IMG/VR virus record: IMGVR_UViG_3300002514_006559
Coordinates: 1-26,734 of that record
Strand: one strand, 5' to 3'
Length of the DNA: 26,734 nucleotides
Source of the DNA: a virus
Positions 4,062 to 22,293 of the stretch are shown piece after piece. The position numbers were made by a program, and so were the translations under genes. The notes below the pieces were generated by a model. That model saw only the letters and a program-made list of their open reading frames with translations, had not been told where the DNA came from and made no database searches. Numbering within the stretch: the first letter of the stretch is position 1; every line of letters starts with the position of its first letter.

Positions 4062-5323
4062 AAAGAGTAGTTGTGAGAGGTCCAGCTTTAAGCCAAAGCG
4101 GATATGGAGAACACACTAGGTTTCTTTTAAGAGCTTTACGCTCGCGGACGGATCTTTTTGAAATATTTTTTATTAATACTAATTGGGGCCAAACTGGTTG
4201 GATCTGGGAAGACAATGAGGAACGAAGATGGATGGATCTTCTTCTTCAAAAAACAATTCAGTACACTCAGCAAGGCGGACAATTTGATATTTCACTGCAA
4301 ATAACAATTCCAAATGAATGGGAAAAGATTGCAACAACTAATATTGGTGTTACAGCTGGAATTGAAACAACAAAAATTGCCCCTCAATGGGTTGAAAAAT
4401 CCTTGCAGATGGATAAGATTATTGTTGTTTCCGAACATGCTAAATATGGTTTTGTCAATACAGAATACCCAGCGAAAAATAATGCCACTGGTGAAGATTT
4501 CATGGCTAAAACCACATGCCCTGTAGACGTTGTAAATTATCCGGTTAAAGAAATCGAACCTAAACCTATTTCTTTAGATTTAAAATATGATTTCAATTTC
4601 TTAACAATTGGAACTTGGATTCCAAGAAAAAATTTAGAAAATACTGTTAAATGGTTTGTTGAACAATTTTATGATGATGAAGTGGGACTCATTGTTAAGA
4701 CTTCTATGGCTAGAAATTGTTTACAGGATAGAGAGATAACTTCTATTAGATTACAAGAGCTATTAAATGAATATAAAGAAAGGAAATGTGAAGTTTATCT
4801 TTTACATGGAGACATATCCGAAGAAGAAATGACTGGTTTATATCAACACCCAAAGGTTCGGTCTTTTATTAGTTTATCTCATGGCGAAGGCTTTGGTCTT
4901 CCACTTTATGAAGCAGCTTATAATGCTTTGCCTATTATTGCTCCTGCATGGAGTGGTCATTGTGATTTTCTTTATGTTCCTAAAAAAGATAGTAAAGGAA
5001 AAGTTAAAAATACTGCTATGTTTTCGTCTGTTTCTTATGATCTTAAACCAGTACAAGAGAATGCTCTCTGGGAAGGTGTAATTCAAAAAGACTCAATGTG
5101 GTGTTTTCCTAAAGAGTGGGCTGCAAAAAAAGAAATGAAGGCAGCAATCAAAAACGAAAAAACCTTAAAATCAAAAGCAAAAAAACTTCAGAAATATTTA
5201 AAAGAAACATTTTCTGCTGAACAACAATATGAGAAAATGTGTTTCTCAGTTAATGGAAAAGAAGAAGCCTTGGATGATGATTGGTTAGAACAAATTGAAA
5301 GTATTGTTCAAGAATATGCTTAG
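4058..5323 (+). CDS. Glycosyltransferase, GT4-type (GT-B fold)
   Basis: A 421-residue glycosyltransferase starting at the ATG that overlaps the previous stop (ATGA); a GGGAG lies about 11 bases upstream. A TTG at 4040 in the same frame is less likely. The protein opens MKRVVVRGPALSQSGYGEH, a beta strand and glycine-rich loop much like its upstream neighbour. Its donor-binding motif is E277-GFGLPLY-E285, followed by LPIIAPAWSGHCDF, typical of GT4. The C-terminal 70 residues are Lys/Glu-rich and helical. There is no signal peptide or membrane anchor. The two neighbouring proteins share architecture but are clearly diverged, so they probably add different sugars or act in sequence on the same glycan. 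Confidence 0.85.
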   Translation: MKRVVVRGPALSQSGYGEHTRFLLRALRSRTDLFEIFFINTNWGQTGWIWEDNEERRWMDLLLQKTIQYTQQGGQFDISLQITIPNEWEKIATTNIGVTAGIETTKIAPQWVEKSLQMDKIIVVSEHAKYGFVNTEYPAKNNATGEDFMAKTTCPVDVVNYPVKEIEPKPISLDLKYDFNFLTIGTWIPRKNLENTVKWFVEQFYDDEVGLIVKTSMARNCLQDREITSIRLQELLNEYKERKCEVYLLHGDISEEEMTGLYQHPKVRSFISLSHGEGFGLPLYEAAYNALPIIAPAWSGHCDFLYVPKKDSKGKVKNTAMFSSVSYDLKPVQENALWEGVIQKDSMWCFPKEWAAKKEMKAAIKNEKTLKSKAKKLQKYLKETFSAEQQYEKMCFSVNGKEEALDDDWLEQIESIVQEYA

Positions 5324-8478: not shown

Positions 8479-9405
8479 ATGAATATATTAATCACAGGCG
8501 GCGCAGGATATATTGGAAGTGAATTAGTCAATCTTTTGATTTCTGAGCATGAGGTTACAGTTTATGATAATTTAATGTATGAGCCTACCTCGTTGTTACG
8601 CTATACAAATCATGAAAATTTTAAATTTGTTAAGGCTGATGTTAGAGATTTAAAAAAATTAGAGAAATACGTTAGCGAATCGGACATTATAATTCCTCTT
8701 GCAGCACTCGTGGGTTTTCCATTATGTGAAAGAGATCCGCGAGGAGCACAAGAAATTAATCATGATGTAAATACGTGGATCGCCAAAAATAAATCTAAAG
8801 AACAGAGGGTTGTTTATCCTTGTACTAATTCTGGCTATGGTATTAGCGTGGACGGTTCAGTTTGTACCGAAGAATCCCCTCTTAATCCCTTAACTTTATA
8901 TGGCAAAACTAAAGTTGCTGCTGAAAATGAATATAAAAATGTGGAAAATCATGTAACTTTTAGATTGGCTACAGTTTTTGGGCCTTCTTCTAGGATGCGG
9001 ACTGATTTGCTTGTTAATAATTTTGTTTTGAAAACTTTAAGGGAGCGTGTTATCCTTTTATATGAGTGCGAGTTTATGAGAAATTATGTGCATATTTTAG
9101 ACGTGTGTCGGGGCTTTAAATATGTTATAGATAATTGGAGCTTGTGTAAAAACGAAACATATAATTTAGGCAACGATTCCCTCAACATGAACAAATTACA
9201 ATTGGCTCAGAAGATTCAACAACATTTACCTTTAGAAATTATTCGTGCTGAAATTATGTCTGATCCTGATGTTCGTGATTATATTGTTAGCAGTGAAAAA
9301 TTTTATAATAAAGGATTTGAGTGCAAATTTGATTTAGACGATGGGATTAAGCAATTGCAAAAAGCTTATAGCATTATTGAATCTCCGTGGTATGCAAATT
9401 ATTAA
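8479..9405 (+). CDS. NAD-dependent nucleotide-sugar epimerase/dehydratase (extended SDR)
   Basis: A 308-residue extended short-chain dehydrogenase. The NAD(P)-binding loop TGGAGYIG is at 6-13, with D30 at the end of the second strand (VTVYDN), favouring NAD. ADVRD and PLAALVG follow as in sugar epimerases. The catalytic set is S118 (TNSGYG) with Y141-xxx-K145 (YGKTK), and FRLATVFGP is the substrate-domain motif. The family acts on nucleotide sugars (4-epimerisation, 4,6-dehydration or 4-keto reduction), and the exact reaction cannot be read. A strong GAGGAG precedes the ATG, 12 bases after the oxidase gene. It sits with an oxidase, a radical SAM enzyme and PanB, so its substrate may belong to that branch. 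Confidence 0.83.
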   Translation: MNILITGGAGYIGSELVNLLISEHEVTVYDNLMYEPTSLLRYTNHENFKFVKADVRDLKKLEKYVSESDIIIPLAALVGFPLCERDPRGAQEINHDVNTWIAKNKSKEQRVVYPCTNSGYGISVDGSVCTEESPLNPLTLYGKTKVAAENEYKNVENHVTFRLATVFGPSSRMRTDLLVNNFVLKTLRERVILLYECEFMRNYVHILDVCRGFKYVIDNWSLCKNETYNLGNDSLNMNKLQLAQKIQQHLPLEIIRAEIMSDPDVRDYIVSSEKFYNKGFECKFDLDDGIKQLQKAYSIIESPWYANY

Positions 9406-9410
9406 AATAT

Positions 9411-10931
9411 ATGAGAAGATTAGATATATTATTTATTCACCCTAATGCATCAAGAAAGATTTATCAGGGATTAAGTTCAGAACACTCCGCTATTGAGCCT
9501 CCAATCTGGGCTGGCATGTTAGCAAATCATTGTCGCTCCCGTGGTTTTGGGGTGGCTATATTAGATTGTGAAGCCGAACGTATCTCTATTGAAGAAGCGG
9601 CTACAGAAATTAAAGATCGAAATCCAAAGGTTGCATGTTTTGTTGTGTACGGCCAACAACCAAGTGCGTCAACCCAAAATATGCAAGGAGCAATTGAGAC
9701 TTCTAATACTTTAAAAAAACTGGATAGTTCTATTACTACTTTATTTGTAGGTGGCCACATCGCCGCCTTGCCCAGAGAAGTTTTAAAAACAGAGTCTTCT
9801 ATTGACTACATTTGCCAAAATGAAGGAGTGTATACAATAAGCAATTTTCTTTCTGCAATCAACTCAATTAATTTTGATGAATCTAAAATAGATGGATTAG
9901 GGTATCGGGATGAAAGCGGAAACATAATCTTAAACAGACCACAGTCCATTGTTCCTAAATCTTTATTAAGTATTGATTTACCAGGTGTAGCTTGGGATTT
10001 GCTTCCTAATATTAAAAAATATCGAACCGCTGGTTGGCACTCGTGGTCGAATGATTCCAACAAGGAACCGTTTGCTGCGTTGTATACAAGTTTGGGTTGT
10101 CCGTATAAATGTTCATTTTGTATGATTAACATTATTAATCGAACAAATCCCGAACCCACTATTGCAAGTGCGGATAGCAATGTTTTTAGGTTTTGGGAGC
10201 CTGAATTTATTATAAATCAATTTGATGAAATAGCTAAAATGGGCGTTAAGAATGTGAAAATTGCTGATGAATTATTTGTTCTTAATCCTAGACATTTTGA
10301 AAGTATATGTAACATTTTAATCGAAAGAGATTATGGGTTTAATCTTTGGGCTTATTCTCGTATCGATACATGCCGACCGAAATATTTAGACATTTTAAAA
10401 AAGGCTGGAATAAACTGGCTTGGGCTAGGAATAGAAAATCCTTCTGAAGCCTTAAGGCAAGAAATTCATAAAGATAGTTACAAAACCGTTAATATAACTG
10501 ATATAATGGATAATATTAGAAGTGCAGGGATAAATGTAGCTGCAAATTATATTTTTGGTTTGCCAATGGACACAGAAGAAAGTATGCAAGGCACTCTTAA
10601 CTTTGCGCTAGAAAATATGTCGGAAATGGTAAATTTATATTGTGCGATGGCATACCCAGGAAGTCCACTTCATTTAATAGCAAAAGGTCAAGGCTGGAGA
10701 CTCCCAGAAACATATTCAGGATATAGTCAACATTCTTATGATATTTTAAATTTGTCTAATTCTGCTTTATCTTCTAAACAAATTTTAGAATTTAGGGATA
10801 AAGCATGGATGAAATATCACACTGATCAAAAATACTTAAATTTGTTGGAAGATAAGTTTGGTGAAGCGGCCAAAAAAAATGTTGAAGAAACAACAAAAAT
10901 TAAGCTTAAGAGAAAATTATTAGGAGATTAA
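9411..10931 (+). CDS. Radical SAM protein with N-terminal B12-binding-like domain
   Basis: A 506-residue protein starting at ATG 9411; an in-frame GTG at 9387 would overlap the previous gene and has no ribosome-binding site either. The N-terminal 150 residues have the flavodoxin-like layout of a cobalamin-binding domain (LDILFIHPNASR, then LFVGGHIAALP at 111-121 and YICQNEG). The DxHxxG histidine that coordinates cobalt in some B12 proteins is not evident. The radical SAM motif is C230-xxx-C234-xx-C237 in LGCPYKCSFC, followed by elements such as GLGIENPSE and YIFGLPMDTEE. Such enzymes perform radical methylations, rearrangements or C-C chemistry. It ends two bases before panB, so both probably serve one pathway; the reaction is unknown. 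Confidence 0.85.
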   Translation: MRRLDILFIHPNASRKIYQGLSSEHSAIEPPIWAGMLANHCRSRGFGVAILDCEAERISIEEAATEIKDRNPKVACFVVYGQQPSASTQNMQGAIETSNTLKKLDSSITTLFVGGHIAALPREVLKTESSIDYICQNEGVYTISNFLSAINSINFDESKIDGLGYRDESGNIILNRPQSIVPKSLLSIDLPGVAWDLLPNIKKYRTAGWHSWSNDSNKEPFAALYTSLGCPYKCSFCMINIINRTNPEPTIASADSNVFRFWEPEFIINQFDEIAKMGVKNVKIADELFVLNPRHFESICNILIERDYGFNLWAYSRIDTCRPKYLDILKKAGINWLGLGIENPSEALRQEIHKDSYKTVNITDIMDNIRSAGINVAANYIFGLPMDTEESMQGTLNFALENMSEMVNLYCAMAYPGSPLHLIAKGQGWRLPETYSGYSQHSYDILNLSNSALSSKQILEFRDKAWMKYHTDQKYLNLLEDKFGEAAKKNVEETTKIKLKRKLLGD

Positions 10932-10933
10932 AA

Positions 10934-11854
10934 ATGGCAGCAAATGATAAAAATAAAGTTACTATCCTTAAATTAAGGAAACAAAAAAGAGAAGGAATCA
11001 AAACAGTTTTAGTTACATCATATGATTATCCACAAGCGCGGATTACGGATGGTTCAGGAGTTGATGCAATTCTTGTTGGCGATTCTTTAGGTATGACAAC
11101 CTTGGGACATAAAACTACAATTCCAGTAACAATGGGTGATATGATCTTACATTGTGAAGCGGTGGCAAGAGGGGCGAAGAACGCTTTTCTTATTGGAGAT
11201 ATGCCGTATATGTCTTATCAAACTTCTAATGAAGAAGCAGTAAAAAATGCTGGGCGATTTGTAAGGTCTGGAATGGATTGTGTTAAAGTTGAAGGAGCAA
11301 TGGTTGATAGAATTAAAGCTATCGCTGATTGTGGAATTTTGGTGATGAGCCACTTAGGTCTTACTCCCCACACACGAGCAAAATTAGGAGGATACAGAGT
11401 TCAAGGTAAGACTGCTGATCAAGCGGATATTATTTTGGAACAAGCCTTTAAACTACAAGAAGCCGGTTGTTCGTTTTTACTATTAGAAGCAATGCCAAAA
11501 GAGCCAGCAGAATTAATTGCCAAGAAATTATCCATACCTGTATATGGAATCGGCGCGGGAGACAAGGTGGATGGACAACTTGTTATTTTTCACGATTTGA
11601 TGGGATTGTTTTGGGAATTTAAATCTAAGTTTGTCAAAAGGTATTGTGAAGCTGGTAGGATTATGCAAGACGCAATGGCCGAATATGCTGATGAGGTTAG
11701 AAATGGTGTTTTTCCAGCCGACGAAAACTTTTATGAAATCAAAGATGAAGAATTAGAAAAACTTTTGGGTGATACAAAATGGAAATATGAAACAGACCAA
11801 GGCTTTCCCACAAATCATTGTCTAACTCCAAATACAGTTACTAGAAAAGATTAG
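10934..11854 (+). CDS. panB: Ketopantoate hydroxymethyltransferase (PanB family)
   Basis: A 306-residue protein with the PanB hallmarks in order: TSYDYPQARI (28-37), VGDSLGM with metal ligand D50, HKTTIPVTMGDMILH, IGDMPYMSYQ with D89, VKVEGA with E120, MSHLGLTPH, LGGYRVQGK, LLLEAMP with E185, and YGIGAG (204-208). By comparison with E. coli PanB, the Mg ligands and catalytic glutamate are present, so the enzyme looks active. The family adds a hydroxymethyl group from 5,10-methylene-tetrahydrofolate to 2-ketoisovalerate, the first committed step to pantothenate. At 306 residues it exceeds the usual ~264, through a C-terminal tail of about 40 residues. A good AGGAG precedes the ATG. Surrounded by sugar genes and without panC/panE, it may use another 2-keto acid here. 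Confidence 0.92.
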   Translation: MAANDKNKVTILKLRKQKREGIKTVLVTSYDYPQARITDGSGVDAILVGDSLGMTTLGHKTTIPVTMGDMILHCEAVARGAKNAFLIGDMPYMSYQTSNEEAVKNAGRFVRSGMDCVKVEGAMVDRIKAIADCGILVMSHLGLTPHTRAKLGGYRVQGKTADQADIILEQAFKLQEAGCSFLLLEAMPKEPAELIAKKLSIPVYGIGAGDKVDGQLVIFHDLMGLFWEFKSKFVKRYCEAGRIMQDAMAEYADEVRNGVFPADENFYEIKDEELEKLLGDTKWKYETDQGFPTNHCLTPNTVTRKD

Positions 11855-11862
11855 AAAACAAA

Positions 11863-13704
11863 ATGAATGTAGCTGATTATGTAATTAATCACTTATCCGA
11901 AATAGGTGTTAAAAAAGTTTTTGTTGTTTATGGTGCAGCCAATGGGAACTTGATCGATTCTTTTACTAGGAATGAAAAGATTGATTATGTTGCCACAATG
12001 CATGAACAAGGCGGTGGATTTGCTGCTGAAGGATACGCGAAAGTATCTAAAAATTTGGGTGTTGCCATTGCCACTAGTGGACCTGGAGGTATGAACTTTG
12101 TTACTTCTATGGGGAATTGTTTTTATGATTCTGTGCCTTGTCTTTTCTTGACTGGCCAAGTTAAAACTCGATATATGAGAAAAGATAAATCAGTTCGGCA
12201 AATTGGCTTTCAAGAAAGTGATATGGTGAGCATCACAAAGCCAGTTACAAAATATTCGAAGTTGGTGGAAAACCCGCTGGATATTAGATATGAATTGGAA
12301 AAAGCAATTTATATAGCAAAAAGTGGACGCCCAGGTCCAGTTCATTTAGATTTGCCAATTGATGTTCAAAAAGCCGAAATTGATTCGGAGGAACTTCTTG
12401 GGTTTGATGAACAACTTGAAGAAAAATGTTACAACGAGAACAAGATCGAGCACCAGATTGATAAATTTATTGATGATCTTTTGAACTCTAAAAGACCATG
12501 TTTGCTGATAGGAGGTGGCGTTCGGCTGGCTAATGCTGAAAAGGATATTTTAGAATTAGCAAAATTATTAAAAATTCCTTGTTTTCCGACTTGGAACGCA
12601 TTAGATATTATTTGTTCTGATTTTGAATATTATGGTGGTCGAGTTGGAACATATGGAGGCGCGGGCAGAAATTTTGGTATCCAAAATTCTGATTTGCTGT
12701 TAGCGATTGGTAGTAGAATTTCTGGACGAATTACGGGCGGTGAACCGCATTTATTTGCACGAGGTGCGAAAAAATATATGGTTGATGTCGATGGTTCTGC
12801 AATGCAAAAAAAGCTTCAACAATTGCCATTTGATGAATGTATTTTGTCAGACGCGAAAGTGTTTATAAACTTGATGCTAAAAAAATTAAAGAATATAAAA
12901 GTTCCAAATTTCCGTGCGTGGAATGAAAAAATAAAATATTGGAAAGAAAAGTATGATCCTGTTACAGATGACATGTTTGAACCATCAAAATATGTGAATC
13001 CTTATGCTTTTCTTAGAATACTATCAGAAGAAATGAAACCAAATGATATTTTTGTTGGTGATTGTGGTGGTAATATTGTAGCAATAAATCATGCCTTTAA
13101 AACAAAAACTGGTCAACATTATTTTACTAATAATGGAAATTCACCGATGGGATTTTCTTTTTCAGGAGCAATGGGCGCGTGGTTTGTGGGCGAAGACACT
13201 CGTGACGTAGTTTGTGTGATCGGTGATGGTGGAATGTGTATGAACATTCAAGAAATACAGACCATGTTGAACTATAATGTTAAGGTGAAAACAATTATTT
13301 TAAATAATCACATCTATGGTATCACAAAAGCATTTCAAGAAGTAAATTTTGAAGGCCGCAGCGAAGCCTGTGGACCAAAGGGTTATCGTCCCCCCGATTT
13401 TATTAAAGTTGCTAAAGCTTATGGTATGGATACGATGGTTATAGACGATGGGGCCGATTATGAAAAGGTAAGAAAACAAATTCGAAAATTTTTAGATCAT
13501 GATGATTCTATCATCTGTGATTTAAATTGTCACGAATGGCATACTTATGAGCCCAAAATTGTTGGTTGGTCCACACCAATTGAGGATATGTATCCTTATA
13601 TTCCTAGAGAAGAATTTTATGAAAACATGATAATTGAGCCGCTTGAAATTTCGAAGAATCCGCCAATGCCTAGTGTTTTTAATTCAACTGAGTCTATGGA
13701 ATAA
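11863..13704 (+). CDS. Thiamine-diphosphate enzyme, acetolactate-synthase-like
   Basis: A 613-residue ThDP enzyme with the usual three domains: pyrimidine-binding (1-170), central Rossmann-like (about 195-340) and diphosphate-binding (about 375-560). The catalytic glutamate is E48 in MHEQGGGFAAEGYAK. TSGPGGMN, FQESDMVSITKPVTKYS and SGRPGPVHLDLPIDVQ closely follow acetohydroxyacid synthase. The diphosphate/Mg motif runs from GDGG (454-457) to NN (481-482). It carries a C-terminal extension of about 50 residues (WHTYEP onward) not typical of IlvB. The family joins a decarboxylated pyruvate unit to a 2-keto acid or aldehyde. No small regulatory subunit (IlvN) is present. There is no clear ribosome-binding site, so translation may be coupled to panB eight bases upstream. 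In a glycan island it may build a branched sugar or acyl group instead of valine precursors. Confidence 0.85.
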   Translation: MNVADYVINHLSEIGVKKVFVVYGAANGNLIDSFTRNEKIDYVATMHEQGGGFAAEGYAKVSKNLGVAIATSGPGGMNFVTSMGNCFYDSVPCLFLTGQVKTRYMRKDKSVRQIGFQESDMVSITKPVTKYSKLVENPLDIRYELEKAIYIAKSGRPGPVHLDLPIDVQKAEIDSEELLGFDEQLEEKCYNENKIEHQIDKFIDDLLNSKRPCLLIGGGVRLANAEKDILELAKLLKIPCFPTWNALDIICSDFEYYGGRVGTYGGAGRNFGIQNSDLLLAIGSRISGRITGGEPHLFARGAKKYMVDVDGSAMQKKLQQLPFDECILSDAKVFINLMLKKLKNIKVPNFRAWNEKIKYWKEKYDPVTDDMFEPSKYVNPYAFLRILSEEMKPNDIFVGDCGGNIVAINHAFKTKTGQHYFTNNGNSPMGFSFSGAMGAWFVGEDTRDVVCVIGDGGMCMNIQEIQTMLNYNVKVKTIILNNHIYGITKAFQEVNFEGRSEACGPKGYRPPDFIKVAKAYGMDTMVIDDGADYEKVRKQIRKFLDHDDSIICDLNCHEWHTYEPKIVGWSTPIEDMYPYIPREEFYENMIIEPLEISKNPPMPSVFNSTESME

Positions 13705-13726
13705 ATAAATAACAATAAAAAACACC

Positions 13727-13987
13727 ATGATGACTTTTAAAGAAGAAAAACACCAACAAATTGAATTTCCATTAGCGATGGAAACAATTGACGCCGCCGA
13801 TATTGTTGCTTTGATTGAGTGGTTAAAATCATATCCTAGGCTCACAAAAGGAGAACTTACTTAAGAGAAAGTATATACTTTGGGTTTAAAAAATAGAACT
13901 GCGGGATTTCATAAAAAAGTAGACAATCTTCCTCCGTCTGCATCTAAAATTTCAAATTTTGTTTTGGGAATTATTAATGAAAAATAA
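13727..13987 (+). pseudogene. Remnant of a second ColD-like/DegT gene, interrupted by a stop and truncated
   Basis: This fills most of the spacer between the ThDP enzyme and the next gene. The ATG at 13727 opens a 45-codon frame. Its residues 11-45 (IEFPLAMETID..., then EWLKSYPRLTKGELT) match the first 36 residues of the intact PLP enzyme at 16011 (IKYPLAKETIN..., WLKSYPRLTKGELT). A TAA at 13862-13864 interrupts it exactly where similarity ends. The same frame then stays open for 40 codons to a TAA at 13985-13987 (LGLKNRTAGFHKKVDN..., ending GIINEK), a segment matching nothing else in the window that I can see. The simplest reading is a lost paralogue with an internal deletion, or a recombination scar joining two gene ends. 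The remaining part of the 13705-13976 spacer shows no promoter or terminator I would defend. Confidence 0.75.
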
Positions 13988-14960
13988 ATTATTGGTGGTT
14001 TATAACACATGTGGTGTGAAAGCAGAAAATATTGAATATTATACTGCCTCTATTGATTCTATTTTAAATCAAGATTTCGAAGATTATAGAGTTGTCGTTT
14101 CAATGTTTAAAAATTCTTTTGAATGCAAAAAAGCTTTAGCACAAAAATTTGGTAATAAAATATCCTATGTTTTTTATGACAAAGAGAGACTAACCGTTAA
14201 TCAAACATTTAACAAAACTGTTCAAATTTGCGTTGAAAAGTTTGGAAAATTTGAGGGTTATTTGTATGTTGATTCTGGAGTGATTTTTGGATCACTTATT
14301 AATGCTGGTAGTTTTAAACACAATCAACATGTATTAAAAAATATTTATGAATTATTTAAATCCGGACCTTATTCTATGGTCACATTACAAGTAGATCTAG
14401 ACGCAGGATATCAGCATATAGGGTATGAATACCAATCAAGAGCCACCGACACGCCCCAAATTCAGGGTCAAGATTTTATAGTTCCAGTTGGTAGTGCAGT
14501 TAATTTACATGCTCAAATTTTTTCTCATGAAATATATGAAAATTTTAATCATAAGTTAATTCCCGATGTTTTTGCTGCTTATTGCACAGAATCAACGTTT
14601 TCATTTTTAAATGCAATAGTTCATGAAAAATGGGTTATAATGAAAGATATTCTTATTAGCCACCTTCCTTCTTTGGAGGGCGCTTCTGTTTCGTTTTTCC
14701 ACCATTCTTTAATACACAGGAACTCATGGAACAATCTCTTATATGAAAGAAATGCATTGGATTTCATAAACGATCCAGAAGCCGTGGATGCTGGCTTGGG
14801 TTATGAAGAATGCAATAACATTATGATGCACAAAGAAGCCGCTTATGATGAGAATGGGTTTGCAAAATATCCCGAAAAATTAAAAGCTGTTATTAAAAAA
14901 TATTTATTTTTATCAAAAGAAGAATTAGATTATGATAAAATTGTTTACAAGACAATTTAA
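13977..14960 (+). CDS. GT-A-like glycosyltransferase, copy 1 of a tandem pair
   Basis: A 327-residue protein. The ATG at 13977 is chosen because the protein then begins MKNKLLVVYNTCGV, identical to its neighbour at 14972; a TTG upstream is not needed. The N-terminal half has a GT2-like order: first strand, then SIDSILNQDFEDYRVVVS (25-42), VNQTFNKTV (74-82), and YLYVDSGVIFG (95-105), where VDSG stands in the DXD place with D99 as candidate metal ligand. The C-terminal half contains NSWNNLLYERNALDFI and GLGYEECN, shared with the paralogue. I do not recognise a named family; the glycosyltransferase call is inferred from fold-like motifs and context. Its 3' end is nearly identical in DNA to that of the next gene. 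Confidence 0.65.
   Translation: MKNKLLVVYNTCGVKAENIEYYTASIDSILNQDFEDYRVVVSMFKNSFECKKALAQKFGNKISYVFYDKERLTVNQTFNKTVQICVEKFGKFEGYLYVDSGVIFGSLINAGSFKHNQHVLKNIYELFKSGPYSMVTLQVDLDAGYQHIGYEYQSRATDTPQIQGQDFIVPVGSAVNLHAQIFSHEIYENFNHKLIPDVFAAYCTESTFSFLNAIVHEKWVIMKDILISHLPSLEGASVSFFHHSLIHRNSWNNLLYERNALDFINDPEAVDAGLGYEECNNIMMHKEAAYDENGFAKYPEKLKAVIKKYLFLSKEELDYDKIVYKTI
14853..14941 (+). repeat. Direct repeat, copy 1 (3' end of tandem paralogue genes)
   Basis: These 89 bases match 15881-15969 with a single mismatch (gaatta versus gaacta), spaced 1028 bases apart. The identity covers the end of the coding sequence for the last ~30 residues (from NGFAKYPEK to ELDYDKI) and stops abruptly on both sides, while the rest of the genes has diverged. 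This points to gene conversion or recent recombination at the 3' ends. Confidence 0.9.
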
Positions 14961-14971
14961 GGAAGACGAAA

Positions 14972-15994
14972 ATGAAAAACAAATTATTGGTTGTTTATAA
15001 CACATGTGGAGTTTGTATGATGTCCTCAGACATTACCAACTATTATATAAAGTCAATTGAAGGTCTTTTAGATCAAGATTTTGAAGACTGTAAGATTGTG
15101 GTGTCAATGTTTAAAAACTCAGTTTCTTGCAAAAAAGCTTTGGCACAAAAATTTGGTAATAAAATATCTTATGTTTTTTATGACGAAGGCACTCTAAGCG
15201 TTAACCAGACATTTAATAAAACTGTTCAAATTTGTGTTGAAAAATTTGGTAAATTTGAAGGATATTTATTTATTGATTCGGGAATCACTTTCGGCCCTCA
15301 CCAAACAACACATCATCCAGCGCATGGAGCATCATATTATGAAAGAGATAGAACTGTTATAGGAAAATTATATAATACATTTAAGTCGGGAGTATATGGT
15401 ATCACAACCGCACAAGTTGATTGGGATGCTGGCTTTTCTACAATTGGTTTTAAATACGATTCCGGCCCACCTGCACAAATCCAAGGAGAGGATTTTATAA
15501 TTCCTCTTGGAAAGGCTGTAAATGGACATATTCAAATTTATTCTAATGAAATGTTTGAGGCTTTCGATAATAAAATGATGCCAGACGTTTTTGCAGCCGA
15601 ATGTTCTGAATCTGTATTTTCTTTTTTGTGTGCTGTGATTCATCAAAAATGGGTTATAATGAAAGATGCACTTGTTCATCATAAAGGGGGTTTAGAGGGT
15701 CACGGATCTGCTTCGGCGGCTTTTTCAAAATCATCGCTTACGTTTGGAAATTCATGGAACAATCTTTTGTTTGGAAGAAATGCCCTGGATTTTATTGATG
15801 ATCCGGATGCTATTGAGGCTGGTCTTGGTTATGAAGAATGTAATAGTATTATGTTACATAAAGAAGATGCGTTCGACGAAAATGGGTTTGCAAAATATCC
15901 CGAAAAATTAAAAGCTGTTATTAAAAAATATTTATTTTTATCAAAAGAAGAACTAGATTATGATAAAATATCATACAATACATTATTAAACTAA
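14972..15994 (+). CDS. GT-A-like glycosyltransferase, copy 2 of a tandem pair
   Basis: A 340-residue paralogue of the preceding protein. It starts 11 bases after that gene with a good AAGGAAG site. Shared segments include MKNKLLVVYNTCGV, QDFED, VVSMFKNS, KKALAQKFGNKISYVFYD, VNQTFNKTVQICVEKFGKF and FIDSGITFG (D102 in the DXD-like place). It differs by extra residues after the first strand (CMMSSDIT), and by a longer loop with four histidines (HQTTHHPAHG, about 110-119) and Gly/Ala/Ser-rich residues near 230-245. The differences lie in regions likely to shape the donor or acceptor site, so the two copies may have diverged in specificity. Soluble, no membrane segment. Family assignment is tentative. 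Confidence 0.65.
   Translation: MKNKLLVVYNTCGVCMMSSDITNYYIKSIEGLLDQDFEDCKIVVSMFKNSVSCKKALAQKFGNKISYVFYDEGTLSVNQTFNKTVQICVEKFGKFEGYLFIDSGITFGPHQTTHHPAHGASYYERDRTVIGKLYNTFKSGVYGITTAQVDWDAGFSTIGFKYDSGPPAQIQGEDFIIPLGKAVNGHIQIYSNEMFEAFDNKMMPDVFAAECSESVFSFLCAVIHQKWVIMKDALVHHKGGLEGHGSASAAFSKSSLTFGNSWNNLLFGRNALDFIDDPDAIEAGLGYEECNSIMLHKEDAFDENGFAKYPEKLKAVIKKYLFLSKEELDYDKISYNTLLN
15881..15969 (+). repeat. Direct repeat, copy 2 (3' end of tandem paralogue genes)
   Basis: Partner of the repeat at 14853-14941, with 88 of 89 bases identical by eye. It lies entirely inside the second paralogue gene. Homologous recombination between the copies would delete the second paralogue and leave one intact gene. Confidence 0.9.
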
Positions 15995-16010: not shown

Positions 16011-17171
16011 ATGAACATAAAATACCCATTAGCAAAAGAAACCATTAACAATGAGGATATTGATGCTTTGTGTGACTGGCTTAAAAGCTATCCGAGGTTA
16101 ACAAAAGGCGAATTGACCCCAAAAGTGGAATCTAAATGGGCTGAATTTATTGGAACCAAACATGCGGTTTTTAACAATTCAGGATCATCAGCTAATTTAT
16201 TAATGGTTTATGCTGCAATCGCTGCCGGAAAAATTAAAAATAAAAAAATTGCTGTTCCATCAGTTGGTTGGGTAACAACGATTGCTCCAGCAATTCAATT
16301 TGGTTTGCATCCTATTATGGTTGGGGCAGATGAAAAAACTTATGGAATGGATTTAGATGCGTTAGAAGAAGTATGCAAAACAGAAAAGCCGGATGCCGTT
16401 ATTTTCGTTCAAGTTTTAGGCGTTCCACATTATAAAGAAAGAATTTTAGAACTTAAGCAAAAATATGGATTTTGTTTGCTTGAGGATTCATGCGCTGCTC
16501 TTGGTGCTTCTTATGCCGATGGGAGCAAGGTTGGAACTGTAGGAGATATGTCGTCTTTTTCTTTTTATTTTGGACACCAACTTTCGACAATTGAGGGCGG
16601 CATGGTAAATACAGATGATAAAGAATTATATAATACTTTGTTAATGTTAAGAAGTCACGGTTGGGCCAAAGACCTGGATTCTGATGATTATCAAAAATTG
16701 GTTAAAAAATATAATGTAGATGATTTTCATAAGCCATTTACTTTTTTTATTCCTGGTTTTAATTTGCGCTCTACAGATCTTCAGGCATTTATTGGGTTGA
16801 GACAGGTTGATAAAGCTGAATGGGCCACTACTCGAAGAAATGAAAATCATTTAAGGTATGCTAAAAACTTAAAAGGATGTGTTACATTTCAAGAATGGGG
16901 AGACAATGTTCCCGTTTCAATTTCTTTTGGTGCATTAGCACGAAATAATGATCATCGAAAAGAAATAGTTTCGCGCTTGGTTGCTCATGGAGTAGAAACA
17001 AGAATTTTTAGTGCGGGCAATCTAGGAAAACATCCCTTTTGGACCGATCTATATGAAACATTCGAAGACGAGGTGAGCGACAGGATTCATGCTTGTGGAT
17101 TCTTTTTACCCAATTATCCAGAATTATCATTAAATGAGATTGATATAATTTGTAATATTGTAAGAGGTTAA
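16011..17171 (+). CDS. PLP-dependent sugar 3-dehydratase, ColD-like (DegT/DnrJ fold, active-site Lys replaced by His)
   Basis: A 386-residue fold-type I PLP enzyme of the DegT/DnrJ/EryC1/StrS group. NSGSSANLL (56-64) binds the cofactor phosphate and LLEDSCAALG gives D159 for the pyridine nitrogen. In aminotransferases the next block reads like SFHPxK..TTGEGG; here it is SFSFYFGHQLSTIEGG, so the Schiff-base lysine is replaced by H189. The same swap defines ColD (His188, GDP-4-keto-6-deoxymannose 3-dehydratase) and the E1 enzymes of 3,6-dideoxysugar synthesis. The length matches ColD (about 388) and not the longer Fe-S RfbH/E1 type. Prediction: glutamate- and PMP-dependent removal of the C3 hydroxyl from a 4-keto-6-deoxyhexose nucleotide, giving a 3,6-dideoxysugar. 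It has a good AAGGAAA site. The remnant at 13727 is a broken relative. Confidence 0.85.
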   Translation: MNIKYPLAKETINNEDIDALCDWLKSYPRLTKGELTPKVESKWAEFIGTKHAVFNNSGSSANLLMVYAAIAAGKIKNKKIAVPSVGWVTTIAPAIQFGLHPIMVGADEKTYGMDLDALEEVCKTEKPDAVIFVQVLGVPHYKERILELKQKYGFCLLEDSCAALGASYADGSKVGTVGDMSSFSFYFGHQLSTIEGGMVNTDDKELYNTLLMLRSHGWAKDLDSDDYQKLVKKYNVDDFHKPFTFFIPGFNLRSTDLQAFIGLRQVDKAEWATTRRNENHLRYAKNLKGCVTFQEWGDNVPVSISFGALARNNDHRKEIVSRLVAHGVETRIFSAGNLGKHPFWTDLYETFEDEVSDRIHACGFFLPNYPELSLNEIDIICNIVRG

Positions 17172-19539: not shown

Positions 19540-20342
19540 CTATAATCTTACCAGGTTTAAGAAGATATATGTGGGATGAATTTTATGAGAGTGTAAAAAA
19601 AACACTTGATAAAACATTCGAAGTAATAATTGTGTCACCTCACAAAACTTTAACAGAAAAATTAAAAGACGTTCCTAATATTAAACTTATAACAGATTAT
19701 GGTTCGCCTGCGCGATGCCAACAAATTGGTTTATGTCATGCTACTGGAAAATATGTTACGTGGTGTGCAGACGATTGTGTATATTTCAAAGATAAGTTAG
19801 GAGAAATTGTTGATTTTTACGAAAAGAACAGAAATTCTTATAAAGATATAGCTATTTTTAAATATTTTGAGGGAGAATGTGGTGCCAACGGTTTAAAACA
19901 TACTTCTGGTCAAACTGAAATGTCTACATGGGATTATTATAGACTTAAAAATTCATGTCCATGGCTTAATGATACTCATATTCCCGATAGTTATTGGCTT
20001 CTTAATTCGGGAATTCTTGATACTAAATATGCTAAAGAATTAGGTGGCTGGGATACACAATTTGAAACTATGTTTTGTGCTCATACTGATTTTGCGATTA
20101 GAACTCAAAATAACGATTCAACTTATTTACTGTTTGAAGATCCTATTGTAAATTGTTCTCACACTCCTGGGACTAGTGGGGATCATGGACCAGTGCATTT
20201 TGCTCAACTATTACATGATGAACCATTACTTAAGCAAATATATTGGGACAAAGATAGTTTAAAACGAATTAAAATTGATTTAAATAATTGGGAAAATTCT
20301 CCCAAGTTATGGACCAGACGATTCAAAAAGAGTGGAATCTGA
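19524..20342 (+). CDS. GT2-like glycosyltransferase, second of a related pair
   Basis: A 272-residue relative of the preceding protein, starting inside that gene's end (16-base overlap) with GAAGGA as ribosome-binding site. It reads DVTIILPGLRRYMWDEFYES, then ITDYGSPARCQQIGLCHATGK and YVTWCADDCVYFKD, with ADDC in the metal-binding place. ELGGWDTQFETMF and SGDHGPVHF follow, and it ends with NWENSPKLWTRRFKKSG. The parallel GDHGP and NW..SP..W..RF motifs in both proteins point to a tandem duplication that has diverged well beyond nucleotide identity. Its stop shares one base with the next start (TGATG). Confidence 0.75.
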   Translation: MRVDVTIILPGLRRYMWDEFYESVKKTLDKTFEVIIVSPHKTLTEKLKDVPNIKLITDYGSPARCQQIGLCHATGKYVTWCADDCVYFKDKLGEIVDFYEKNRNSYKDIAIFKYFEGECGANGLKHTSGQTEMSTWDYYRLKNSCPWLNDTHIPDSYWLLNSGILDTKYAKELGGWDTQFETMFCAHTDFAIRTQNNDSTYLLFEDPIVNCSHTPGTSGDHGPVHFAQLLHDEPLLKQIYWDKDSLKRIKIDLNNWENSPKLWTRRFKKSGI

Positions 20343-21088
20343 TGGATAAGAAAAAAATAAAGATTTTAGTTATTGGAGAAAGTTGCAGGGATATTTTTAA
20401 TTATGGCTATTGTGAAAGATTGTGTCCTGAAGCTCCGGTTCCTGTTTTTAATTTAATAAGAACTGCCGAGAATGGTGGGATGGCTAGAAATGTGTATTCA
20501 AATTTATTAGCGATGAACGCTGATGCTTTTTTATATACAAACAAAAATTGGAAAAATATAACTAAAACCAGATTTGTTGAAGAAAAAAACAATCATATGT
20601 TTATGCGACTTGATATTGGGGATAAAGATTATGGTAAAGTTAATTTGAAAAAAATAAAATTTTCTAATTATGACGCTGTTATAATATCTGATTACAACAA
20701 GGGATTTTTAACAGAAAAGGACATAGAAGATATTTCTGATAAGCACCCCAATACATTTTTAGACACAAAAAAACAGCTTGGTGATTGGTGTAGAAAAATT
20801 AAATTTATAAAAATAAACAATTTTGAATATAATAGAACCAAACATCTAGTAGATGAAAATATGGAAGAAAAATTAATTATTACTATGGGACCAGAAGGTT
20901 GCAAATATCAAAATATAATTTTTCCTGTTGAAGAAGTTGAAATAAAAGATTCATCCGGTGCTGGCGACACATTTATTTCAGCGTTTACTTTAAGATATTT
21001 GGAGACTGAAAATGTTCATGAGGCATTGAAGTATGCAAGCAATTCGGCAACAAAAGTAGTCCAAAAGCGCGGAGTTAGTACGGTATAA
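20342..21088 (+). CDS. PfkB-family sugar kinase like the N-terminal domain of HldE (heptose-7-phosphate kinase)
   Basis: A 248-residue ribokinase-fold kinase. The start ATG overlaps the previous TGA by one base; a longer form from 20288 is unlikely. VIGESCRDIFNYG followed by ERLCPEAPVPVFNL (25-38) is the HldE/RfaE N-terminal signature. ENGGMARNV (43-51) replaces the usual GGAANV. SDYNKGFL (116-123) and FLDTKKQ match the mid-domain motifs. DSSGAGDTF (203-211) carries the catalytic base D209 and anion hole. At 248 residues it is shorter than the ~315-residue HldE kinase domain but has all key motifs. Predicted activity: phosphorylation at C1 of a sugar 7-phosphate, likely a heptose. The matching nucleotidyltransferase lies 816 bases downstream as a separate gene. 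Confidence 0.83.
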   Translation: MDKKKIKILVIGESCRDIFNYGYCERLCPEAPVPVFNLIRTAENGGMARNVYSNLLAMNADAFLYTNKNWKNITKTRFVEEKNNHMFMRLDIGDKDYGKVNLKKIKFSNYDAVIISDYNKGFLTEKDIEDISDKHPNTFLDTKKQLGDWCRKIKFIKINNFEYNRTKHLVDENMEEKLIITMGPEGCKYQNIIFPVEEVEIKDSSGAGDTFISAFTLRYLETENVHEALKYASNSATKVVQKRGVSTV

Positions 21089-21091
21089 AGG

Positions 21092-21907
21092 ATGAAATCA
21101 AATATTTTAATTACAGGCTCTTCGGGCTATTTAGGTAAATATTTTTTAAGAAAAATAATTTCCACTAAAGATTATAATATAAATTTACTTTTTGAGGATA
21201 TAAATAATTTTGAGAGTATTAGAGATTATTTTTCTTCAAATAGAATTGACGTAGTTGTTCATTTAGCTGCTTTAGTTGCTTCTAGGGCGAATCAAAATGA
21301 GATGATGAAGACTAATTTAGAAGCAACTAAAAATTTGGCTAACTTAATTGATAAAAATACTCATTTTATTTTTCTATCATCCGATCATGTATTCAAAAGT
21401 GATAAAGAAAAAATATATAAAACGGAGGACATTAAAGATCCTGAAACTCTTTATGGAAAATCCAAACACCTTGCAGAAGAATATTTGTCTAAGAATGTGG
21501 AAAAATTAACAGTTCTAAGAACATCCATGTTATACGGATATAATGACCCAAAGAGAAATAATTTTTTTAAGTTTCTTATTGATAATTTAAAGGTGTTAAA
21601 AAAAATAGATATTTATTCAAATGTGTGCAATCAACCAACTCACGTCAGTGATGTAAGTGATTTTATTATTAAAATAATAAGAGAGAAAAAGTTTGGATTT
21701 TTTCATGCATTAGGTGATGAATACCTAAATCGTTTTGAGTTGGGTAAAATGTTTTGTGAAATTCATGGGTATGATGTTGAATATTTGAATTCTGTAAAAC
21801 AACAAGAAGGTGGAAGAATTCCTAATTATTTAAATTTACAACCAAGTCAATGTTTTTTGGAGAATAAAAAATATTCGCTCGAAATGGGTTTGAAACAATA
21901 TTCATGA
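21092..21907 (+). CDS. RmlD-like NAD(P)-dependent sugar reductase/epimerase (SDR)
   Basis: A 271-residue SDR resembling dTDP-4-dehydrorhamnose reductase (RmlD). It has ILITGSSGYLGKYF (NAD(P)-binding G9, G12, G15), VVVHLAALVASRANQNE with TNLEATKNLA, FLSSDHVF (95-101, in place of RmlD's STDYVF), YGKSK (Y121-xxx-K125), LRTSMLYGY, and FFHALGDEYLNRFEL, the usual RmlD C-terminal region. It is predicted to reduce a 4-keto group of a nucleotide sugar. It sits between the two HldE-like genes, which suggests a role in finishing the same heptose-type sugar. AAAGG lies directly against the ATG, an unusually tight spacing. The gene overlaps the next ATG by four bases. Confidence 0.82.
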   Translation: MKSNILITGSSGYLGKYFLRKIISTKDYNINLLFEDINNFESIRDYFSSNRIDVVVHLAALVASRANQNEMMKTNLEATKNLANLIDKNTHFIFLSSDHVFKSDKEKIYKTEDIKDPETLYGKSKHLAEEYLSKNVEKLTVLRTSMLYGYNDPKRNNFFKFLIDNLKVLKKIDIYSNVCNQPTHVSDVSDFIIKIIREKKFGFFHALGDEYLNRFELGKMFCEIHGYDVEYLNSVKQQEGGRIPNYLNLQPSQCFLENKKYSLEMGLKQYS

Positions 21908-22293
21908 AAATTTTCGCCAATGGTTGTTTTGATATTTTACATCGAGGACACATCGAACTTTTTAAATATGCTAAATCTTTAGGAAACAAATTAATAGTCG
22001 GAATAGATTCAGATGAAAAAGTTAAGCGAGATAAAGGCCAAGATCGTCCATTCAATTACTTGAAGGATAGAATAGCTATGTTGGAAGCGATTAAGTATAT
22101 TGATGAGGTGGTTTCTTTCGACACACGACAAGAATTGGAAGATTTAATTAAAACTCACAATCCCGACGTTCTTGTGGTAGGATCTGATTGGAAAGGAAAA
22201 GAAGTGGTGGGAGACATTTTTGCAAAAGAAGTGAAATTTTTTGATAGAATAGGTGATTATTCTACAACAAAGATATTGGAGAACAACAAATGA
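21904..22293 (+). CDS. HldE C-terminal-like nucleotidyltransferase (heptose-1-phosphate or related)
   Basis: A 129-residue cytidylyltransferase-fold enzyme. FANGCFDILHRGH (4-16) contains the HxGH catalytic motif (H13, H16). RPFNYLKDRIAMLEAIKYID follows the HldE C-terminal domain (RPLxxLxxRxxVLxAL). GSDWKGKEVVG (93-103) matches its GGDYKPEEIxG, and YSTTKI (119-124) takes the place of the SST/STTxI nucleotide-binding motif. The length equals that domain alone. Predicted: transfer of AMP (or another NMP) to a sugar 1-phosphate made by the kinase at 20342. A glycerol-3-phosphate cytidylyltransferase is a less likely alternative, since the GSDWKGKE segment is of HldE type. ATGA overlaps on both sides indicate tight co-translation. 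Confidence 0.85.
   Translation: MKIFANGCFDILHRGHIELFKYAKSLGNKLIVGIDSDEKVKRDKGQDRPFNYLKDRIAMLEAIKYIDEVVSFDTRQELEDLIKTHNPDVLVVGSDWKGKEVVGDIFAKEVKFFDRIGDYSTTKILENNK

Follow-up and report, generated by a model that had tools for sequence, protein, structure and literature searches.

Gene content of the island

The window, that is, the whole stretch of 26,734 nucleotides that was analysed, is the first 26.7 kb of a viral metagenome record of 62,382 bases that belongs to an uncultured phage of marine type. It carries a long island on one strand with glycosyltransferase (GT), epimerase, radical-SAM, PanB, TPP-enzyme, ColD-like, kinase and cupin genes. DNA matches of the region to named phages were not found. 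The order is radical-SAM, PanB, TPP enzyme, a frame composed of a ColD start and an E1-beta end, two GT genes and, further downstream, an intact ColD gene. The PanB, TPP-enzyme and first GT genes, the composite frame and the intact ColD gene lie on the plus strand.

A PanB-like ketopantoate hydroxymethyltransferase (10934-11854; Pfam PF02548, E = 3e-98) is the first gene of the present ThDP module. The second encodes an acetolactate-synthase/YerE-like TPP enzyme (11863-13704) with the Pfam domains TPP_enzyme_N/M/C. Its nearest relatives are the proteins of the phage contigs L103 and L126 (79-80% identity), and the top PDB match is 8rph. Homology thus assigns the gene to the acetolactate-synthase-like ThDP enzymes, with a putative YerE-like branching activity.

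The first GT-like gene (13977-14960) is followed by a second (14972-15994). The tandem genes share 67% protein identity and belong to a family that is common in such islands; a Pfam match with E < 10 was not found for the pair. The intact ColD-like 3-dehydrase (16011-17171) matches ColD in the PDB (2gms, E = 2e-52), has a histidine where a lysine is expected and contains the PLP/PMP site. No other complete DegT gene is present in the 62-kb record, and relatives, too, normally have a single one. Further downstream, an RfaE-like kinase (20288-21088) and a nucleotidyltransferase (21904-22293) are encoded by separate genes with an RmlD-like gene (21092-21907) in between. In L126, a small gene of a different kind (4848-5135) separates kinase and nucleotidyltransferase.

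A frame with an internal stop codon

Between the TPP enzyme and the first GT gene lies a frame at 13727-13987. It starts with an ATG at 13727 or 13730, the latter giving a scrap of 258 bases. Translation confirmed the layout given in the original prediction: 45 codons encoding MMTFKEEKHQQIEFPLAMETIDAADIVALIEWLKSYPRLTKGELT precede a TAA at 13862-13864, and 40 sense codons reading EKVYTLGLKNRTAGFHKKVDNLPPSASKISNFVLGIINEK continue in frame into the next gene up to a second TAA at 13985-13987. The frame thereby ends 11 nt within the GT gene starting at 13977. The codon usage of each half is typical of the genes of this phage and was matched by none of 2586 false open windows of 40 codons. A 37-codon open stretch by itself is only mildly unusual (chance P about 0.065). 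According to the codon-usage scores, both halves therefore derive from coding sequence in the same frame.

The N-terminal part is the start of a ColD-like gene

The first part of the frame (13730-13867) represents codons 1-46 of a former gene for a ColD-like PLP 3-dehydrase of the DegT family. Residues 1-46 share 72% identity with the 395-aa protein of L126, with one TAA inside the match. The L126 protein belongs to DegT_DnrJ_EryC1 (E = 3e-66). L103 and L126 were found by scanning viral contigs for the motif WLKSYPRLTKG. Both have full-length genes of 395 aa, and the L103 protein begins with MTFKKEREKEIKFPLAMETIDNSDIDALCNWLKSYPRLTKGSLT. From its second methionine, the remnant is 71-73% identical to the two proteins over 44-45 aa. 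This includes an MTFKxE extension that is common to the remnant, L103 and L126 and is missing in the copy at 16011. In L103 and L126, too, the ColD gene follows a TPP enzyme gene, separated from it by a single gene. The homology to a ColD-like N-terminus is clear; the full-length fold and the PLP/PMP site (His for Lys) are absent, as the frame stops after 45 codons. The L103/L126 homology and the stop codon thus bear out the original description as a fragment beginning with a ColD-like N-terminus. In an exact pattern search of viral contigs, no other ColD N-terminus followed by TAA was found.

The first 45 codons had been described as matching the PLP enzyme at 16011. This holds for residues 12-45, of which 25 of 34 amino acids (74%) and 71% of the nucleotides are identical (dN 0.26, dS 1.16). 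Residues 1-11 match orthologues in other phages but not the local copy. The DNA identity of 71% and the high dS agree with the earlier view that a recent duplication is not involved. The remnant DNA is closer to L103/L126 (74-76%) than to the local copy. With the nearest relatives in L103/L126 for both protein and DNA, the N-terminal part represents a lineage of its own from an L103/L126-like phage. The proposed origin from a paralogue within the genome is thereby contradicted: the N-terminus was copied from another phage lineage.

All 14 residues that are invariant across 61 unique ColD family N-termini are retained in the remnant. One strongly conserved site, with D or N throughout the 61 sequences, has changed to valine. 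The fragment status stands, but the word "decayed" in the original prediction is too strong for a remnant with 14 of 14 invariant residues and one changed conserved site. Given this pattern of residues, the gene loss looks young.

The tail is the end of an E1-beta gene

The second part (13868-13987) is a remnant of the last ~39 codons and the stop codon of an E1-beta (Transket_pyr) ThDP-enzyme gene. It overlaps the next gene by 11 nt. A parent gene other than ColD had been postulated, with a search of the tail against phage and bacterial proteins as the route to its identity. Searches of the tail against named phages, plasmids, Pfam, PHROGs, the PDB and an initial group of related contigs gave no significant match. 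In the island of the relative G002, the same GT is preceded by an E1-alpha/E1-beta pair, and this led to 80 further contigs. The match was then found in the 315-aa E1-beta of phage contig L221, which ends with LGLADKTAGFHPAVDNLPPSAADITKHVIATLQDK: 54% identity over 35 aa (tblastn E = 1e-8). This protein belongs to Transket_pyr and resembles the E1-beta subunit of pyruvate dehydrogenase.

A profile of 10 E1-beta relatives gave 34.5 bits for the tail, and 1000 shuffled sequences reached at most 3.7. In the alignment with the 10 relatives, the tail has the E1-beta C-terminal pattern ..GL.(N/D)(R/K)(T/S)AGF...DNLPP...I... The Transket_pyr domain is absent, since the last ~39 codons only are present. 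By these homologies, the tail (about 13868-13984) is assigned to the C-terminus of a phage E1-beta, a pyruvate-dehydrogenase-like ThDP subunit. A search of the whole 62-kb record with the L221 E1-beta detected the tail (E = 5.8e-8) and no further E1-beta pieces.

Several candidates for the tail parent were rejected. The best phage match, to Vibrio phage PS34B.1 (E = 3), spans two small hypothetical genes and was judged to be due to chance. A similarity to the RmlD-like gene at 21092 (25 aa, 44%, score 50) was not upheld by profile tests, and an RmlD-like family of ~170 aa that abuts the GT in L021 failed in them as well. The short E1-beta180 beside the GT in L167 gave a lead, yet the parent is its 315-aa cousin. 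Pyruvate dehydrogenase E1-beta is matched over most of its length by two GenBank records of 1.5 and 4.1 kb, OR850426.1 and OR847274.1, which are named as Staphylococcus and Listeria phage. They probably represent host DNA inside phage records.

The joint

The two homologies meet in a short interval. ColD homology extends to 13867, and the E1-beta match starts between 13856 and 13871. Overlapping match ends, DNA comparison and GC content place the recombination joint in 13856-13871. The in-frame TAA that ends the translation of the remnant (13862-13864) is located within about 8 nt of the joint. A whole-record search with the L126 ColD and the L221 E1-beta recovered the intact ColD at 16011 and the pieces 13730-13867 and 13856-13984, with one TAA in each of the two pieces. 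GC content is 0.357 in the TPP gene and 0.355 in the ColD piece, versus 0.274 in the E1-beta piece and 0.303 in the GT. Exact matches between 13701-14000 and any locus do not exceed 18 nt. Among viral contigs, the same joint was not found in other records. Each side is homologous to a different intact gene of relatives.

According to the identities of the nearest hits, the flanks are closest to different phage lineages. On the left, L103 (or L126) is nearest for radical-SAM (78%), the TPP enzyme (80%) and the ColD piece; PanB is the exception, with L028 as nearest relative. On the right, most of the nearest hits belong to E1-type or E1-lineage contigs, for example, L003/L116, L081/L170, L181 and L183. 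The start of the GT family is overlapped by E1-beta-type genes in L003 and L221 as well.

Alternative ThDP modules after the radical-SAM gene

In the compared loci, the gene directly after radical-SAM is PanB, followed by the TPP enzyme, in 11 loci, and E1-alpha203/E1-beta180 in 68 loci. E1-alpha275/E1-beta315 is present in 9 loci, with one short gene separating E1-alpha275 from radical-SAM. The loci were gathered with the same queries and the contigs are partial, so these counts describe alternatives, not frequencies. A TPP enzyme and an E1-beta did not occur together in any compared locus. On the level of whole contigs, 14 TPP-type records lacked E1-beta180 and 20 E1-type records lacked the TPP enzyme. 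Among the records seen, only the window combines parts of both kinds of module. Gene replacement in the sugar pathway, as suggested earlier, is supported by this alternation of modules at one slot; the serotype-like switching proposed along with it, and any change of the host surface, would be conjecture.

The slot corresponds to 9387-13987 of the window and is also seen in L003/L167, L103, L221 and L250-L259. In L030 (7874-9061) and L027 (2890-4077), a gene of another DegT subfamily (395 aa) separates the TPP enzyme from the GT and thereby takes exactly the position of the remnant in the window. L221 also encodes a 463-aa fusion of HAD/acid-phosphatase-like and E1-alpha domains (1147-2538), adjoined by a second E1-alpha/E1-beta pair.

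Origin of the composite frame

The frame is very probably a recombination scar that formed when two phage segments with different ThDP modules were joined. One segment, from an L103/L126-type phage, would have ended with PanB, TPP enzyme and ColD. The other, from a phage of the E1-alpha/E1-beta type, would have started inside E1-beta and continued into the two GT genes and, further on, ColD. The joint would have cut both genes, ColD after about 46 codons and E1-beta before the last ~39 codons. One ThDP module, together with the start of its own ColD, may thus have replaced the other. The truncated ColD would be redundant because an intact ColD lies 2 kb further on in the GT block and relatives normally carry one. 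The loss of E1-beta would be tolerable because the TPP module now stands where the E1 module would be. We infer this direction of transfer as well as a functional equivalence of TPP and E1 modules in these phages.

Some observations speak against this account. As the exact parents are absent from the collections, the position of the joint has a precision of no better than about 15 nt. L103 and L126 have one extra gene between TPP enzyme and ColD. In L221, the only relative whose GT-type island contains E1-beta315, the E1-alpha203/E1-beta180 pair separates this gene from the GT; an additional deletion may therefore have been required for the parental order.

An assembly chimera, that is, a wrong joining of two metagenome phage genomes at this position, is unlikely. 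It would suit a joint that is present in a single metagenomic record and absent from others, and the fall in GC across it. However, a long shared word is missing at the joint, where the longest has 18 nt. The parent families are non-homologous there, which makes a shared assembly word improbable, and the right half retains its natural overlap with the GT start.

A functional small gene, in which the peptide of 45 aa or a readthrough product of 86 aa has its own role, is highly improbable. Coding-like codon usage in both halves and the 14 invariant residues in the N-terminal part would be expected of such a gene, but the frame has a stop at codon 46 and lacks the purine-rich ribosome-binding context present at the starts of the L103/L126 genes. 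Searches including viral contigs found no homologue of the combined frame, with ColD start and tail as one protein, and profile searches with Pfam and PHROGs gave no match that would mark the remnant as a separate family. Neither piece is long enough to contain the cofactor site of its parent enzyme. The remnant is almost certainly non-functional and presumably silent.

An internal deletion within a single ColD-like gene, with both halves from the same aminotransferase-fold gene, would suit the full-length DegT between TPP enzyme and GT in L027/L030 but has hardly any likelihood left: the closest full-length relatives of the N-terminal part end with CGFFVPNYPELTNENIDFICQVIKGE, unlike the tail, whose score against ColD C-termini does not exceed that of shuffled sequences and whose E1-beta match refutes a single parent.

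Relation to known phage islands and sugar-branching enzymes

As a truncated-gene scar in a mosaic phage island, the frame belongs to a known kind, of which it is a well-resolved case. Variable LPS or host-recognition islands of T4-like marine phages, the pelagimyophages, are known for cassette exchange (PMC7029224). They likewise have many glycosyltransferase, radical-SAM and LPS genes that are exchanged as cassettes. In contrast, the joint itself is preserved here, with remnants of two identifiable, non-homologous genes. The scar is of value in that the gene of origin can be given for each broken end; the splice point of two phage lineages is thereby fixed. Compared with ColD/E1 PLP-dependent 3-dehydrases (DegT; PDB 2gms), the N-terminal part is a true family N-terminus; it holds 46 of about 395 residues, without the cofactor site.

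ColD/E1-type 3-dehydrases are expected to yield products such as CDP-3,6-dideoxy-4-keto-glucose. This compound is branched by YerE (PMC12247030). As for YerE, the intact acetolactate-synthase/YerE-like TPP gene sits with a 3-dehydrase gene; the transfer of an activated aldehyde onto a keto-deoxysugar would be its putative activity. Keto-deoxysugars are branched both by YerE-like enzymes and by two-subunit alpha-keto-acid dehydrogenases (E1-alpha/E1-beta, alphaKADH2; PMC12247030). The tail resembles alphaKADH2 as the C-terminus of a phage E1-beta, but keeps about 39 of 303-315 residues, and a sugar role of the phage enzymes would follow by analogy. The slot thus harbours two sorts of thiamine enzymes that are both sugar-branching elsewhere (PMC12247030) and were never found together in the loci compared here. 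Tentatively, the slot after radical-SAM might serve marine phages specifically for the exchange of ThDP enzymes, either YerE-like ones with PanB or two kinds of E1-alpha/E1-beta, that would add a carbon branch to a ColD-made keto-deoxysugar. Swaps would then change the branched sugar, and the scar would be the trace of one swap. This is a concrete hypothesis on how phages might diversify unusual sugars.

The PanB gene at 10934-11854 shares 92% protein identity with L028:7861-8778, far exceeding the values of the neighbouring genes. This hints at a separate recent exchange of PanB.
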